NCBI RefSeq assembly: GCF_900215215.1
Contig: NZ_OBDR01000002.1
Span: 124,001-188,000, forward strand
Direction of reading: 5' to 3'
Length of the DNA stretch: 64,000 bases
Source of the DNA: Methanohalophilus euhalobius
GTDB lineage: Archaea; Halobacteriota; Methanosarcinia; Methanosarcinales; Methanosarcinaceae
Positions 2,420 to 7,050 of the stretch are shown piece after piece. The notes below the pieces were generated by a model, which saw nothing but the letters and a program-made list of their open reading frames with translations, made no database searches and was not told where the DNA came from. Position numbers and translations under genes: made by a program. Within the stretch, counting starts at the first letter, position 1. The number at the start of each line of letters is the position of its first letter.

Positions 2420-3112
2420 TTATTTCCAGCCGGCTTCAACCATCGACTTAAACATCAAAAGACCATCATCAGAACCTATAATTGTCTCCGATGCTCGTTC
2501 GGGATGTGGCATCATACCCAGTATATTACCCATTCTATTTGTGATGCCTGCAATGTTATTACGTGAACCGTTTGGGTTGACAGCTTCGGTTGGATTGCCT
2601 TTTTCATCTACATATCTGAATACAACCTGTTTATTATCTTCCAGCTGCTGCAGGGATATGTCATCGTGGTAGTATTTGCCATCCTTATGGGCAATCGGGA
2701 TGCGGATTACCTGACCCTTTTCATACATTGAAGTAAAATGTGTATTCGTATTTTCTACCTTCAGGTATGACCATTCACATTTGAACTTGGGATAACTGTT
2801 TGTTGTAAGGGCTCCATCCAGCAGCCCTGACTCAGTAAGTATCTGGAAACCGTTGCATATTCCCATAACTGGCTTGCCATTGTCAGCCAGTTTTCTCACA
2901 GATTCCATGATAGGTGTTCTTGAAGCAATAGCACCTGATCTCAAATAGTCACCATATGAGAAACCACCCGGGATTACAACAGCTTCATAGCCATCGAGTT
3001 TCTCTTCTTTATACCAGACAAGTTCGGCATCAATTCCAAGTACATTCTGCAAGACATGCAGGACATCATTATCACAATTGCTTCCACCAAACTGTATGAT
3101 GGCAACGGTCAT
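2420..3112 (-). CDS. purQ: Phosphoribosylformylglycinamidine synthase, glutaminase subunit PurQ
   Basis: Supplies ammonia from glutamine for conversion of FGAR to FGAM in purine synthesis, as part of the PurS-PurQ-PurL complex. Class I glutamine amidotransferase of 230 residues: oxyanion-strand motif [13 protein letters not shown], nucleophile Cys in [10 protein letters not shown], and C-terminal His-Glu in MMPHPER. Its start overlaps the purS stop by 4 nt (ATGA), so the two are translationally coupled. PurL is not in the window. Another purine enzyme, PurP, lies unlinked at 58 kb. Confidence 0.96.
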
Positions 3113-3360
3113 TCTATTTCCCTCAGGTCAATCGAGTAATCGTGAATTATAGGGTTTGCAATCAGTTTCTGGCACATTTGGTCAACAAGTCCGCGTGCAT
3201 TTTCTTCTGATTCTGCATTAAGTTCAATCACATACCTTTTGGTGCTTTTAACACTCTCTGTATTATAACCCAGGTGTCCCAGAGCACGCTTGATAGTAGT
3301 TCCTTCAGGGTCCAGCATACCGGCCTTTAGATTGATGGTGACTTCTGCCTCATATAGCAT
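3109..3360 (-). CDS. purS: Phosphoribosylformylglycinamidine synthase subunit PurS
   Basis: Small structural subunit (83 residues) that bridges PurQ and PurL in the three-part FGAM synthase. The sequence matches the family throughout: an N-terminal beta strand ([11 protein letters not shown]), [16 protein letters not shown], then a second alpha-beta unit ending in the YSIDLREIE type tail. It is the first gene of a purS-purQ pair. A TATA-like TTATATAA on the minus strand near 3415-3422, about 55-60 bp before the start, is a plausible promoter. Confidence 0.93.
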
Positions 3361-3428
3361 ATTAATCCTCAGCTGTGATTGTAAAGTAATCCAACCCTAG
3401 ACATAAATGATGTGTTATATAATCTCTT

Positions 3429-4016
3429 CTATAGACGCTGTTTTGCCTCCATAACCCGCTGTATAAAAGTAATATGGGTCAGGATTGCAATAAGTGCAAG
3501 TGCTTGCAGGAGGAAACCTGAAAGTGCGCCGAGTATCAGAATTATAATTCTTTCAGATCTTTCTGCCACCCCTATATCAAGTTTGGATGCACCTGCTGCT
3601 TCGGCACGGGCGCGTGTGTAACTGACAAGATATGAGCCGATCATTGCAAAGATACACCAAATCCATCCTTCTATAAAAAATCCGGTACCTTGAATTGTGT
3701 TGTTTACAAAACCATAAATCAAACCTGCGAAAACAATAGCATCTGCATAACGATCACATACCGAATCAAGTACCCCTCCAAAAGCCGATGTTGTACCACT
3801 GGCACGTGCAACGGCCCCGTCTAAAATATCAAGTACTCCTCCAAGAATTAAAAAAAGGGCACCATATAAAAGATAGCCTTTTGCGAATTCGAAAGCTGCC
3901 AGAAAACTTACAAAAAGCCCAAGATATGTGATTACGTCGGGGGAGAAGGGGATTCTGGATGCAAATGGCAATACATAATGACGTATGGAGTTTTTTAAAT
4001 TACCAAGTATTTCCAT
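3429..4016 (-). CDS. CDP-alcohol phosphatidyltransferase (probable archaetidylinositol-phosphate synthase type)
   Basis: Integral membrane enzyme that joins a CDP-activated archaeal lipid to a polar alcohol. The family signature D-G-x2-A-R-x8-G-x3-D-x3-D is present as DILDGAVARAS, FGGVLDSVCD and the following Asp, around residues 64-90. About five or six membrane segments follow in 195 residues. Assignment to the archaetidylinositol-phosphate branch rests on general resemblance and is inference. It is the only gene in the window I find ending with TAG; 19 sense codons follow before a TGA at 3369-3371. The start region is tandemly duplicated (37 bp, see 4003-4076), giving a second ATG with its own Shine-Dalgarno just upstream in another frame. 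Confidence 0.85.
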   Translation of the reverse strand: MEILGNLKNSIRHYVLPFASRIPFSPDVITYLGLFVSFLAAFEFAKGYLLYGALFLILGGVLDILDGAVARASGTTSAFGGVLDSVCDRYADAIVFAGLIYGFVNNTIQGTGFFIEGWIWCIFAMIGSYLVSYTRARAEAAGASKLDIGVAERSERIIILILGALSGFLLQALALIAILTHITFIQRVMEAKQRL

Positions 4017-4076
4017 CCCTCTTCATAAATTGGTAGTATCCAAGTATTTCCATCCCTCTCCATAAATTGGTAGTAT
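4003..4076. repeat. 37-bp tandem duplication covering a translation start
   Basis: Two adjacent 37-bp copies, 4003-4039 and 4040-4076, differ at one base. Each copy contains the minus-strand Shine-Dalgarno and ATG of the phosphatidyltransferase gene. The upstream copy has GGAGAGGG and the gene-proximal copy GAAGAGGG. The upstream ATG (4053) opens a 17-codon reading frame, MEILGYYQFMKRDGNTW, whose TAA at 4000-4002 lies inside the real gene. The shift is 37 nt, so the two frames differ. Confidence 0.95.
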
Positions 4077-4132
4077 AATCGTAGAGATATTGGGATTCCA
4101 CATATATAAAATTAAACACAAATAATGGGTAC

Positions 4133-4759
4133 TTAGTAATTGGATGTTTGTTTTTTTTGCTGATTAAGCAGGGATATAGCCTTTTTCAGGTAATTTTTTG
4201 CTTCTTCACATTCAGGATCAAGATTTAATACATGAGAAAAACATCGTGTTGCTTCACCATATGCCCCTTTTAAGAAATATGATACACCCCTACAGTTCCA
4301 CAAAATAGTCCTCTTTTCAGCAGAATCAGTTTCCCTGATATTAATATGTCCATAACAAATAAGGGCTTCATCATATTTCTTTATAGTACACAACATCATT
4401 CCTTTATTCAGCCATGCATTATCATAATCTGGATCAATCTCGGTAGACCTGTCAAAGCATTCAATCGCTTTTTCTGGCTATTTCAACTAGGAATAAACTA
4501 TGCCTTTATTGTACCAAATATCGGGATTATTCCCATTAAGTTCAAGAGCATTATCAAAACAACGAATAGCTTCCTGATATTCTGTCAGATCGCTGTGGGC
4601 GATGCCTTTGTTCGTCCATACAAGGGCAATCGCTTCATCATCCCAGATCAAAGAATCTTTTTCCACTTCGAGAACGCGTGAGTAGCAGCGAATCTTGTCT
4701 TCAGGATATTCGGCGTGAAAACCAAGCTGAAACCATTTTTCTGCCGCCATTCCTTCCAT
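4133..4759 (-). CDS. TPR-repeat protein interrupted by two in-frame TAG codons
   Basis: Tetratricopeptide-repeat protein; such proteins mediate protein-protein contacts. Reading from the ATG at 4759 gives about 90 residues with TPR consensus spacing (ALVWTNKGIAH, EAIRCFDNALELN, IWYNKGIVYS), then TAG at 4487-4489, Leu-Lys, TAG at 4478-4480, and the same frame continues with PEKAIECFDRSTEIDPDY and three further helices to TAA at 4133. No frameshift is needed: the whole is 208 codons plus stop. In a TPR the two TAG positions would suit glutamine, so each could be a single CAG-to-TAG change. It is either a fresh pseudogene or a read-through gene with pyrrolysine at both sites. A promoter-like TTATACTT lies 32-39 bp upstream. 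Confidence 0.75.
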
Positions 4760-5173
4760 TTATAGTATGCTCCTGAGCACGCCAGATATTAAGTATAAGT
4801 AAAAGTATAAGGTTATTCGAAGTATAAAATACTTATTATCTATTACATATAATCATCCAAAAAGGACATCACGAAAGTTCAACTTTATAGAATTTACAAC
4901 CATAATCATTGTTGAACCATATATCCACTGCAGTCTATTATCATACTTTTCTGAGATACTGACGTGATAGAACTGGCAAATTTATATCCTGCGCCTTTCT
5001 TACAGGAAATTGTGGGGAAATAGAAAACTATAAATTTTTTGGCTCCATTATATAAAGCAAAAATGGAATTATGAATAGACATTCAATCACTGATTCGACT
5101 TTAAGAGGGAGAGAATCAGGATAAAAAATATATTCATAGTACAAAACATCATCCATAAATGGGGGGGAATTAA
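4760..5173. promoter_or_regulatory. 414-bp divergent intergenic region with promoters for the TPR gene and gpgS
   Basis: The octamer AAGTATAA occurs three times, at 4791-4798, 4803-4810 and 4820-4827. Read on the minus strand it is TTATACTT, a TATA-like box properly placed for the TPR gene at 4759. The third copy is part of an inverted repeat AAGTAT-AAA-ATACTT (4820-4834). On the plus strand, TTATATAAA at 5048-5056 is the best TATA box for gpgS, implying a leader of about 95 nt; a seven-G run at 5161-5167 precedes the gpgS ATG and may act as the ribosome binding site. I see no gene here. Confidence 0.55.
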
Positions 5174-6397
5174 ATGGATTTTCATCAGGAGGATATTACT
5201 ACAATACATGATTTTTGCATTGATGTCAATAAACTTGAAGAAAAAATTAAACAACTTGAACAAAAACGACCTGCTTGCCTGATCATACCGATATTATACG
5301 AGGAAGTCGAAAAACTTCCTCTCCAGCAAATCGTGGAGGCACTAAATAAATGCGACTGTATTAAACAGATAATTATTCCAATGGCAGCTGATAATCCTGA
5401 ACAATACCGAAAAGCTGCACAATTTTTCAGCCAGTTAAAAACCGACCATATGCTCATATGGTGTAATGGCAAAAGGGTCCAAAAAATCATTGATGATATG
5501 AAAGAGATTGATCTTGACCTTACAGGGTTCAGGGGTAAGGGCATGGATGCCTGGCTGGGCCTGGGTGTTGCCAGCCTGAATTCTTATGCAATTGCCCTGC
5601 ATGATGCGGATATTGTCAATTACACATCTGCCATTCCTTTAAAGCTTTTTTATCCCATAGTCAGTCGTGATCTGAATTTCTTTTTCAACAAAGGTTATTA
5701 TGCAAGGATAAACCAGGACAAAAAAACTATGCATGGACGTGTTTATCGTCTTTTTGTCCAGCCCCTTATGAATACCCTGCACAAAGAACGTTGGTGTGAT
5801 TCAGATATCCTGGACTATTTCAGATCTTTCCGCTACACCCTCTCCGGCGAATTTGCAATGACAAGCGATCTTGCACTCAATATAAGAATCCCGGCAGACT
5901 GGGGACTTGAAGTCGGATTACTTGCAGAAGTCTACAACAATGCCACTTTCAAGAGAGTATGCCAGACAGATCTTGGGTTTTACGATCACAAACACAAAGA
6001 ACTTGGTCATGACCGCACTGAAGGCCTCTGCAAGATGACCGGCGATATTTTCTCAACGCTTCTACGTATAATCACGGAATCATCAACCACCCCCATATCC
6101 CATTCACTCTTGCATAGTATACAGGTGAAATATAAGAGAAGGGGGCAGGACATTATAAGAAAATATTATACTGATGCTCTTTTCAATGGCCTCAACTTTA
6201 ACCGTCATGAAGAGGAAACCTATGTGGATATGTTCTCAAAGGTCATCATGAAATCCGGGGAAGAATATATTGATAAACCCCATAATATGCTGTTGCCAGA
6301 CTGGACAAGGGTTCTCTCCGCAATACCTGACCTAAGGGAACAAATCTGTTATGCAGCACGCGAGGATGCCAGGGAATTTTATGGTAACGTTTTTTGA
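5174..6397 (+). CDS. gpgS: Glucosyl-3-phosphoglycerate synthase (GT81-like glycosyltransferase)
   Basis: Predicted to transfer glucose from an NDP-glucose to 3-phosphoglycerate, the first step to the compatible solute glucosylglycerate. The 407-residue protein has a GT-A fold pattern: PACLIIPILYEE near residues 33-44, a GKGMDAWLGLG loop at 121-131 that matches the GpgS acceptor/nucleotide loop, and the metal-binding DAD at 144-146 (LHDADIVNY). A long C-terminal helical part follows. Methanococcoides burtonii has a characterised GpgS of this type. The phosphatase GpgP, often next door, is absent: the next locus is a dead aminotransferase. A mannosyl-3-phosphoglycerate synthase (GT55) is less likely on sequence pattern. 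Confidence 0.8.
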   Translation: MDFHQEDITTIHDFCIDVNKLEEKIKQLEQKRPACLIIPILYEEVEKLPLQQIVEALNKCDCIKQIIIPMAADNPEQYRKAAQFFSQLKTDHMLIWCNGKRVQKIIDDMKEIDLDLTGFRGKGMDAWLGLGVASLNSYAIALHDADIVNYTSAIPLKLFYPIVSRDLNFFFNKGYYARINQDKKTMHGRVYRLFVQPLMNTLHKERWCDSDILDYFRSFRYTLSGEFAMTSDLALNIRIPADWGLEVGLLAEVYNNATFKRVCQTDLGFYDHKHKELGHDRTEGLCKMTGDIFSTLLRIITESSTTPISHSLLHSIQVKYKRRGQDIIRKYYTDALFNGLNFNRHEEETYVDMFSKVIMKSGEEYIDKPHNMLLPDWTRVLSAIPDLREQICYAAREDAREFYGNVF

Positions 6398-6454
6398 GAG
6401 TTAGATGAAAGATTGAAAAGGTTTAAATAACAAATACAGCGCAATATCATTGCC

Positions 6455-7050
6455 ATAATATCCCAGAAAGTAGCAGTCATACCACCTTTTTACGTTATGG
6501 AGGTACTGGAGAGGGCCCAGCAGCTCGAAGCAGAGGGGAAAAGTATTATTCATCTGGAGATTGGAGAACCGGATTTTCCCACTGCTCCCCATATATGTGA
6601 AGCTGCCCATATGCCCTCGATGCCTGCAATACAACCTACACACATAGTCAGGGATACCCGAACTCAGAGAGGTAATCACTGACGACTACAACACACGTTT
6701 CAACCTAGACCCTTCACAGGTAGTTATCACTTCTGGTACAAGCCCTGCCCTTATGTTGAGTTTCATGGCGCTTGTTGATGAAGGGGTAAAGGTAGCGATG
6801 TCCAATCTATGCATGTTATCCCAATTTCGTCAAAGCCATTGGAGGCAAGGCAGTCCTTGTTTCTACAATGGAAATAAGTTTACCGGGAATTCACTTGAAT
6901 TCAGCAGGCAGATTCTGGAAAAAACCGGAGTTACCACATCGGGTATCGACTTTGGGTCCGGTGGAGAAGGCCATGTGATATTCTCGTATGCCAACAGTTT
7001 AGGAAATATCGAAAAAGGAATGGAAATACTTGATGCTTTCCTTAACGGGC
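6455..7050 (+). pseudogene. Decayed class I/II aminotransferase (aspartate aminotransferase type)
   Basis: Pieces of a PLP aminotransferase lie in order but in different frames. The N-terminal part (VAVIPPFYVMEVLERAQQ, HLEIGEPDFPTAP) breaks near 6600. A second piece (TTYTHSQGYP, then DDYNTRFNLDPSQVVITSG and LMLSFMALVDEG) is split by a stop near 6672 and a shift. Then YPNFVKAIGGKAVLVST reads in another frame from about 6815. Finally TSGIDFGSGGEGHVIFSYAN appears from about 6940. The central domain with the PLP lysine is missing, and the whole spans about 195 codons where an intact enzyme has about 380. The expected start codon has become ATA. A TATA-like GGTTTAAATAAC at 6419-6430 may be its old promoter. 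The 3' end runs into the convergent ATPase gene. Confidence 0.9.

Follow-up and report, generated by a model that had tools for sequence, protein, structure and literature searches.

Two in-frame TAG codons, probably read as pyrrolysine, in a tetratricopeptide repeat protein gene conserved across Methanohalophilus

The window analysed here is a stretch of 64,000 nucleotides from the halophilic, methanogenic archaeon Methanohalophilus euhalobius (contig NZ_OBDR01000002.1, positions 124,001 to 188,000 of the forward strand; genome size 1.94 Mb). On its minus strand, at 4759-4133, lies a 208-codon frame for a tetratricopeptide repeat (TPR) protein, which runs from an ATG to a TAA; its sole interruptions are codons 91 and 94, both TAG, with Leu-Lys encoded between them. 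The features of this gene are:

4133..4759, minus strand: TPR protein gene; ATG at 4759, terminal TAA at 4133-4135; Pfam TPR_1 with E 2.8e-35; all-helical model
4487..4489, minus strand: codon 91, an in-frame TAG at the final residue of helix A in the TPR unit 79-112; candidate pyrrolysine codon
4478..4480, minus strand: codon 94, an in-frame TAG in the A-B turn; candidate pyrrolysine codon
4770..4774, minus strand: AGGAG, possible ribosome binding site of the TPR gene, predicted from sequence

An earlier note on this DNA had described a 208-codon frame open except for TAG at 4487-4489 and 4478-4480, with TPR consensus on both sides, and both statements hold on the minus strand. Pfam TPR_1 matches the protein in three stretches, the best of which (residues 79-112) covers both TAGs. 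The 34-residue units with paired helices that characterize the family are present (Pfam TPR_1/TPR_2 over the cut-off), and the protein profile also matches designed consensus TPR structures. An AlphaFold model built from 24 sequences, with lysine standing in for pyrrolysine, predicts a TPR solenoid of 11 helices (mean predicted local distance difference test score 94), in which residue 91 closes helix 79-91 and residue 94 immediately precedes helix 95-108. Site 91 is thus the end of helix A and site 94 part of the A-B turn in a single TPR unit, and their place in the predicted fold suggests that they are probably solvent-exposed. The soluble, 208-residue protein probably acts as a scaffold for protein-protein interaction or binding. 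The AGGAG upstream of the gene is also present in the upstream DNA of relatives.

The genome can decode TAG as pyrrolysine (Pyl), because it harbours the tRNA and genes required (pylTSBCD) in one cluster as well as two mtmB genes, each with the expected TAG at codon 202. The presence of this cluster had been proposed in the earlier note as a check on the Pyl reading. Its components are:

contig C7:4310-4381: tRNA-Pyl (anticodon CTA)
contig C7:4478-5692: pylS, pyrrolysyl-tRNA synthetase (PylRS)
contig C7:5689-6750: pylB, named from cluster order and sequence rather than family search
contig C7, to 7834: pylC, named in the same way
contig C7:7848-8627: pylD, named in the same way

Mass spectrometry of MttB from M. 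portucalensis, which belongs to the same genus, has shown pyrrolysine at the UAG position (PMC4928046). No Pyl insertion structure of the PYLIS type was recognised by Rfam within 3000-6500 of the window at E values up to 5; PYLIS-like signals are not strictly required for Pyl insertion (PMC4153887).

In five other Methanohalophilus species the TPR gene is present at 90-92 % identity without frameshift, and TAG is kept at codons 91 and 94. Both TAGs are therefore invariant in six species at a mean pairwise synonymous divergence (dS) of ~0.28. The ratio of nonsynonymous to synonymous divergence (dN/dS), obtained across the six species by Nei-Gojobori counting, a simple method that uses no tree, is ~0.04 for codons 1-90 and ~0.2 for codons 95-204. 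Past the TAGs, variable sites are distributed 15/9/38 over the first, second and third codon positions (n=62; chi-square P 1.2e-5). By these measures the frame past the second TAG is under purifying selection, and coding constraint continues in frame beyond the UAGs, as is expected of a Pyl protein. A restart of translation past the TAGs was considered as the source of this signal and found insufficient: the first in-frame start codon is codon 121 and has no well-spaced ribosome site, whereas codons 95-120 ahead of it have a ratio of 0.18, so that restart cannot account for the downstream constraint.

These data bear directly on the possibility, raised in the earlier note, of a recently killed gene carrying two amber mutations. 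In its favour, standard-code gene callers would presumably split or discard the gene. However, both ambers are common to six species without further damage, dN/dS lies well below 1 past the stops, and neither further disabling changes nor relaxed selection past the supposed lesion were found. Among 51 orthologues (E below 1e-40 among 112 genomes of the family) there is no TAA, TGA or frameshift inside the TPR frame. The pseudogene explanation is rejected at the level of sequence, on account of genus-wide TAG conservation, downstream purifying selection and the intact frame, and retains a negligible probability.

Same-length homologues with a sense codon at the sites are present among these orthologues. 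The earlier note had suggested that one C-to-T step from CAG explains each TAG. This holds in part for codon 91, which in relatives is TAT/TAC, AAT/AAC, CAG, GAA, AAA or ATT (residues N, Y, Q, E, K, I), with CAG in one distant clade only. It is not supported for codon 94, which is GAT/GAC, AAC/AAT, TAC/TAT, GAG/GAA, CGA, AGG/AGA, AAA/AAG or CTA (D, N, R, E, Y, K, L), and CAG in no relative examined. The other five Methanohalophilus species have TAG rather than CAG at both codons. A conserved function of side chains 91 and 94 is not visible from these columns in relatives.

Internal stops occur in 9 of the 51 orthologues and amount to 15 in total, every one being TAG. In the numbering of each protein they stand at 91 and 94 in the six Methanohalophilus species, at 30 and 53 in genome G056, at 53 in G049 and at 26 in G070. 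The taxonomy of the genomes given by handle is taken from kinship labels. In the tree, the six Methanohalophilus species form one fully supported clade and G056 and G049 another, while G070, of a different genus, stands alone. The TAGs thus occupy 5 alignment columns in 3 separated places of the tree, requiring ~5 gains; as a rough estimate assuming equal likelihood for the three stops, the chance of five of five gains being TAG is near 0.004. The pylS gene was found in all nine TAG-bearing genomes, as in all genomes tested.

Two neighbouring genes served as controls, and no internal stop was found in their 99 and 49 orthologues, the latter number referring to the divergent upstream neighbour:

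5174..6397, plus strand: glucosyl-3-phosphoglycerate synthase gene (GpgS_Meth), NCBIfam NF040724 over the cut-off

This contrast does not prove selection for TAG, because the controls are more constrained enzymes and the TPR gene was chosen for its TAG. It nevertheless relates to a Pyl-gated expression of the gene, in which the UAGs would be kept by selection and full-length output would depend steeply on charged tRNA-Pyl; in an extended form, the family would have repeatedly regained UAG, and the TPR scaffold would perhaps link methylamine supply to the downstream gene for a lipid head group. If true, the amount of scaffold would report steeply on charged tRNA-Pyl, since two successive readings are needed. 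Both TAGs being kept genus-wide would agree with such a gate, as would the independent gains at other sites in two other lineages, seen against two neighbouring genes free of internal TAG; shifting sites combined with repeated gain are the pattern to be expected if a UAG anywhere in the gene were selected. The enzymes used as controls are, however, less tolerant of change, the choice of the gene inflates the contrast, 42 of the 51 orthologues lack TAG although those tested have pylS, and a codon without synonymous alternative needs no special selection to be conserved at this depth. A gate is accordingly regarded as unlikely.

An even less likely alternative is that UAG ends most translation and that the 90-residue N-terminal part is the working product, with read-through being minor. 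The stronger constraint on codons 1-90 would fit, as would the stop-like TAG of the adjacent gene described below. On the other hand, codons 95-204 are under purifying selection in the six species and every aligned orthologue is full length. Moreover, termination at TAGs placed midway through a TPR unit would cut a 90-residue product off after helix A, and the TAGs at codons 26, 30 and 53 of the sister lineages would leave almost nothing.

The adjacent gene follows the TPR gene after ~120 bases:

3429..4016, minus strand: archaetidylinositol phosphate synthase-like gene (CDP-alcohol phosphatidyltransferase); TAG at 3429-3431; Pfam PF01066

Its best NCBIfam match is NF040950, slightly below the cut-off of that family. 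The terminal TAG is kept in six Methanohalophilus species, and the frame past it is shifted by a one-base indel in relatives; the G056 protein terminates at that residue as well, by TGA. In all 20 genomes checked from three genera (g1, g3 and g13) the TPR gene immediately precedes the lipid synthase gene, with 72-218 bases between the matches, while in other genera the two genes are apart. Because this order is kept, the two genes may be suggested to form an operon, with co-expression of the TPR protein and lipid head-group synthesis.

The use of TAG elsewhere was assessed with a dicodon-based gene call on a ~424 kb sample of the genome. Among 412 called genes, 212 end with TGA, 191 with TAA, and 9 first meet TAG. 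In 7 of these 9 the frame clearly or probably continues past the TAG, namely in two mtmB genes, the TPR gene, and genes for a RuBisCO-like protein, a histidine kinase, a Cas3-like helicase and an acetyltransferase-like protein; for the latter two, continuation was judged from the source genome. At most 2 of the 9 TAGs look like true ends, those of pylB and of the lipid synthase-like gene. The pylB TAG (L060:6748-6750, plus strand) lies just ahead of the pylC start in all six Methanohalophilus species and is a stop in other methanogens, including several Methanosarcinaceae (PMC2933860). TAG makes up 4-5 % of stops in Methanosarcina and 1.6 % in Ca. Methanomethylophilus alvus (PMC4153887). A rule by which stop-like TAGs are followed by A at position +4 was dropped, as the Cas3-like sense case also has an A there.

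Several observations weigh against full decoding of the two TPR codons. In the adjacent lipid gene and at the end of pylB, TAG still seems to act as a genuine stop, and for this reason UAG may be read inefficiently, in which case two in succession would multiply the loss. Furthermore, constraint in Methanohalophilus is weaker on the C-terminal than on the N-terminal half (dN/dS 0.2 vs 0.04), which could reflect some truncated product. Since several TAG-free pairs of relatives, though not all of them, show a comparable imbalance, it is no clear sign of truncation. By sequence, one locus would thus combine TAGs used as sense codons with a TAG in the next gene that either ends translation or appends a tail without meaning. 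A complete reassignment of TAG is not shown, because the TAG of the downstream gene behaves as a true stop.

Taken together, both TAGs are most likely read as pyrrolysine, since the codons and the reading frame that follows are conserved genus-wide. A full-length TPR protein of a working gene, with the UAGs decoded by pyrrolysyl-tRNA and pyrrolysine at residues 91 and 94, is favoured at a probability of about 0.85 from the sequence data. The Pyl machinery, the genus-wide TAGs and the downstream selection thus lend support to the suggestion of the earlier note that the full protein with two pyrrolysines could be made. In the proposed course, the ribosome would read both UAGs with Pyl-tRNA efficiently enough for full-length protein to be formed. 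The pyrrolysines would be tolerated rather than required, as they would be placed at a variable, probably exposed helix end and turn. The TAG codons may have spread by near-neutral drift because the genome almost never uses TAG as stop, and would be retained because no synonymous codon exists for TAG and the downstream frame is needed. Reading of UAG by another suppressor as an ordinary residue (Gln, Tyr, Lys) would leave the same traces as far as the evidence consists of sequence, from which the inserted residue is not seen. It is very improbable, given that the genome has tRNA-Pyl(CUA) together with its synthetase and that the residue measured at UAG in M. portucalensis MttB was pyrrolysine.

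With MtmB, MtbB and MttB the TPR protein would share the decoding of UAG as pyrrolysine by the same machinery; unlike the catalytic and invariant pyrrolysine of these methyltransferases, the TPR sites are variable and non-catalytic. The 'Pyl code' attributed to Kivenson et al. (Science 2025) reportedly involves archaea that read all TAGs as pyrrolysine. The use of TAG as a sense codon beyond methyltransferases would be shared with the present case, but in the genome studied here at least two TAGs (lipid gene, pylB) still behave as gene ends.

The earlier note had considered a Pyl protein other than a methylamine methyltransferase as notable. Such proteins are not unprecedented (PMC4153887, PMC2933860): pyrrolysine outside methyltransferases is already known or predicted. 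According to PMC2933860, which cites Heinemann et al. 2009, the tRNAHis guanylyltransferase Thg1 of Methanosarcina acetivorans is a non-methyltransferase Pyl protein. As described there, Thg1 is likewise an ordinary protein with an acquired in-frame UAG, its Pyl residue being dispensable for activity and neutral evolution being invoked; it differs in having one UAG, in M. acetivorans only, whereas the TPR gene has two in six species as well as separate gains in sister lineages. For Ca. Methanomethylophilus alvus, 16 additional Pyl proteins were predicted, one of them with Sel1 repeats (PMC4153887). Common to that set and the present case are in-frame TAGs in unrelated housekeeping or accessory proteins, a TAG-poor genome and TAG-free homologues; the TPR TAGs differ in being conserved across a genus and in having been subjected to a dN/dS analysis. 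A literature search with a coverage that misses most subscription papers yielded no paper on a pyrrolysine-containing TPR protein, and PMC3639795, which has M. mahii among its screened genomes, does not mention TPR in its text. A TPR protein that combines two genus-wide Pyl codons within a single repeat with independent gains in sister lineages was not found in the literature searched.

The gene offers a clean case from comparative genomics, with two codons in one TPR unit conserved in a genus, in which pyrrolysine would be an ordinary and non-catalytic residue whose positions move between lineages. With TAGs that behave as sense codons located ~120 bases upstream of a gene with a stop-like TAG, the locus also constitutes a natural test of the choice between sense and stop at archaeal UAG. 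Annotation under the standard code would break up or lose such genes.

Three of the other frames with internal TAG deserve mention. The RuBisCO-like gene (L073:7417-8841, plus strand; G000:C18:207417) has a TAG at codon 371 in the source genome only; seven relatives of the genus match without it, the close ones at 98-99 % identity, and this TAG is either a Pyl codon gained very recently, or else a recent lesion or sequencing error. In the histidine kinase gene (L077:17251-19008, minus strand; G000:C17:77251) the TAG at codon 564 falls within NPQG-O-GSVF, the last of the conserved glycine motifs. The proteins of relatives are longer; two relatives read past the TAG position without a stop, and three carry TGA or TAA somewhere in the matched stretch. 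The Cas3-like helicase frame (L074:14288-16510, plus strand; G000:C17:14288) is 740 codons long, and codon 155 is its one TAG. The GpgS match in M. profundi (G063) breaks off at residue 285 (G063:C2:1720166-1721017), and the RuBisCO-like gene of that genome is split into two frames (G063:C2:280211-281631), each of which may indicate an assembly frameshift.
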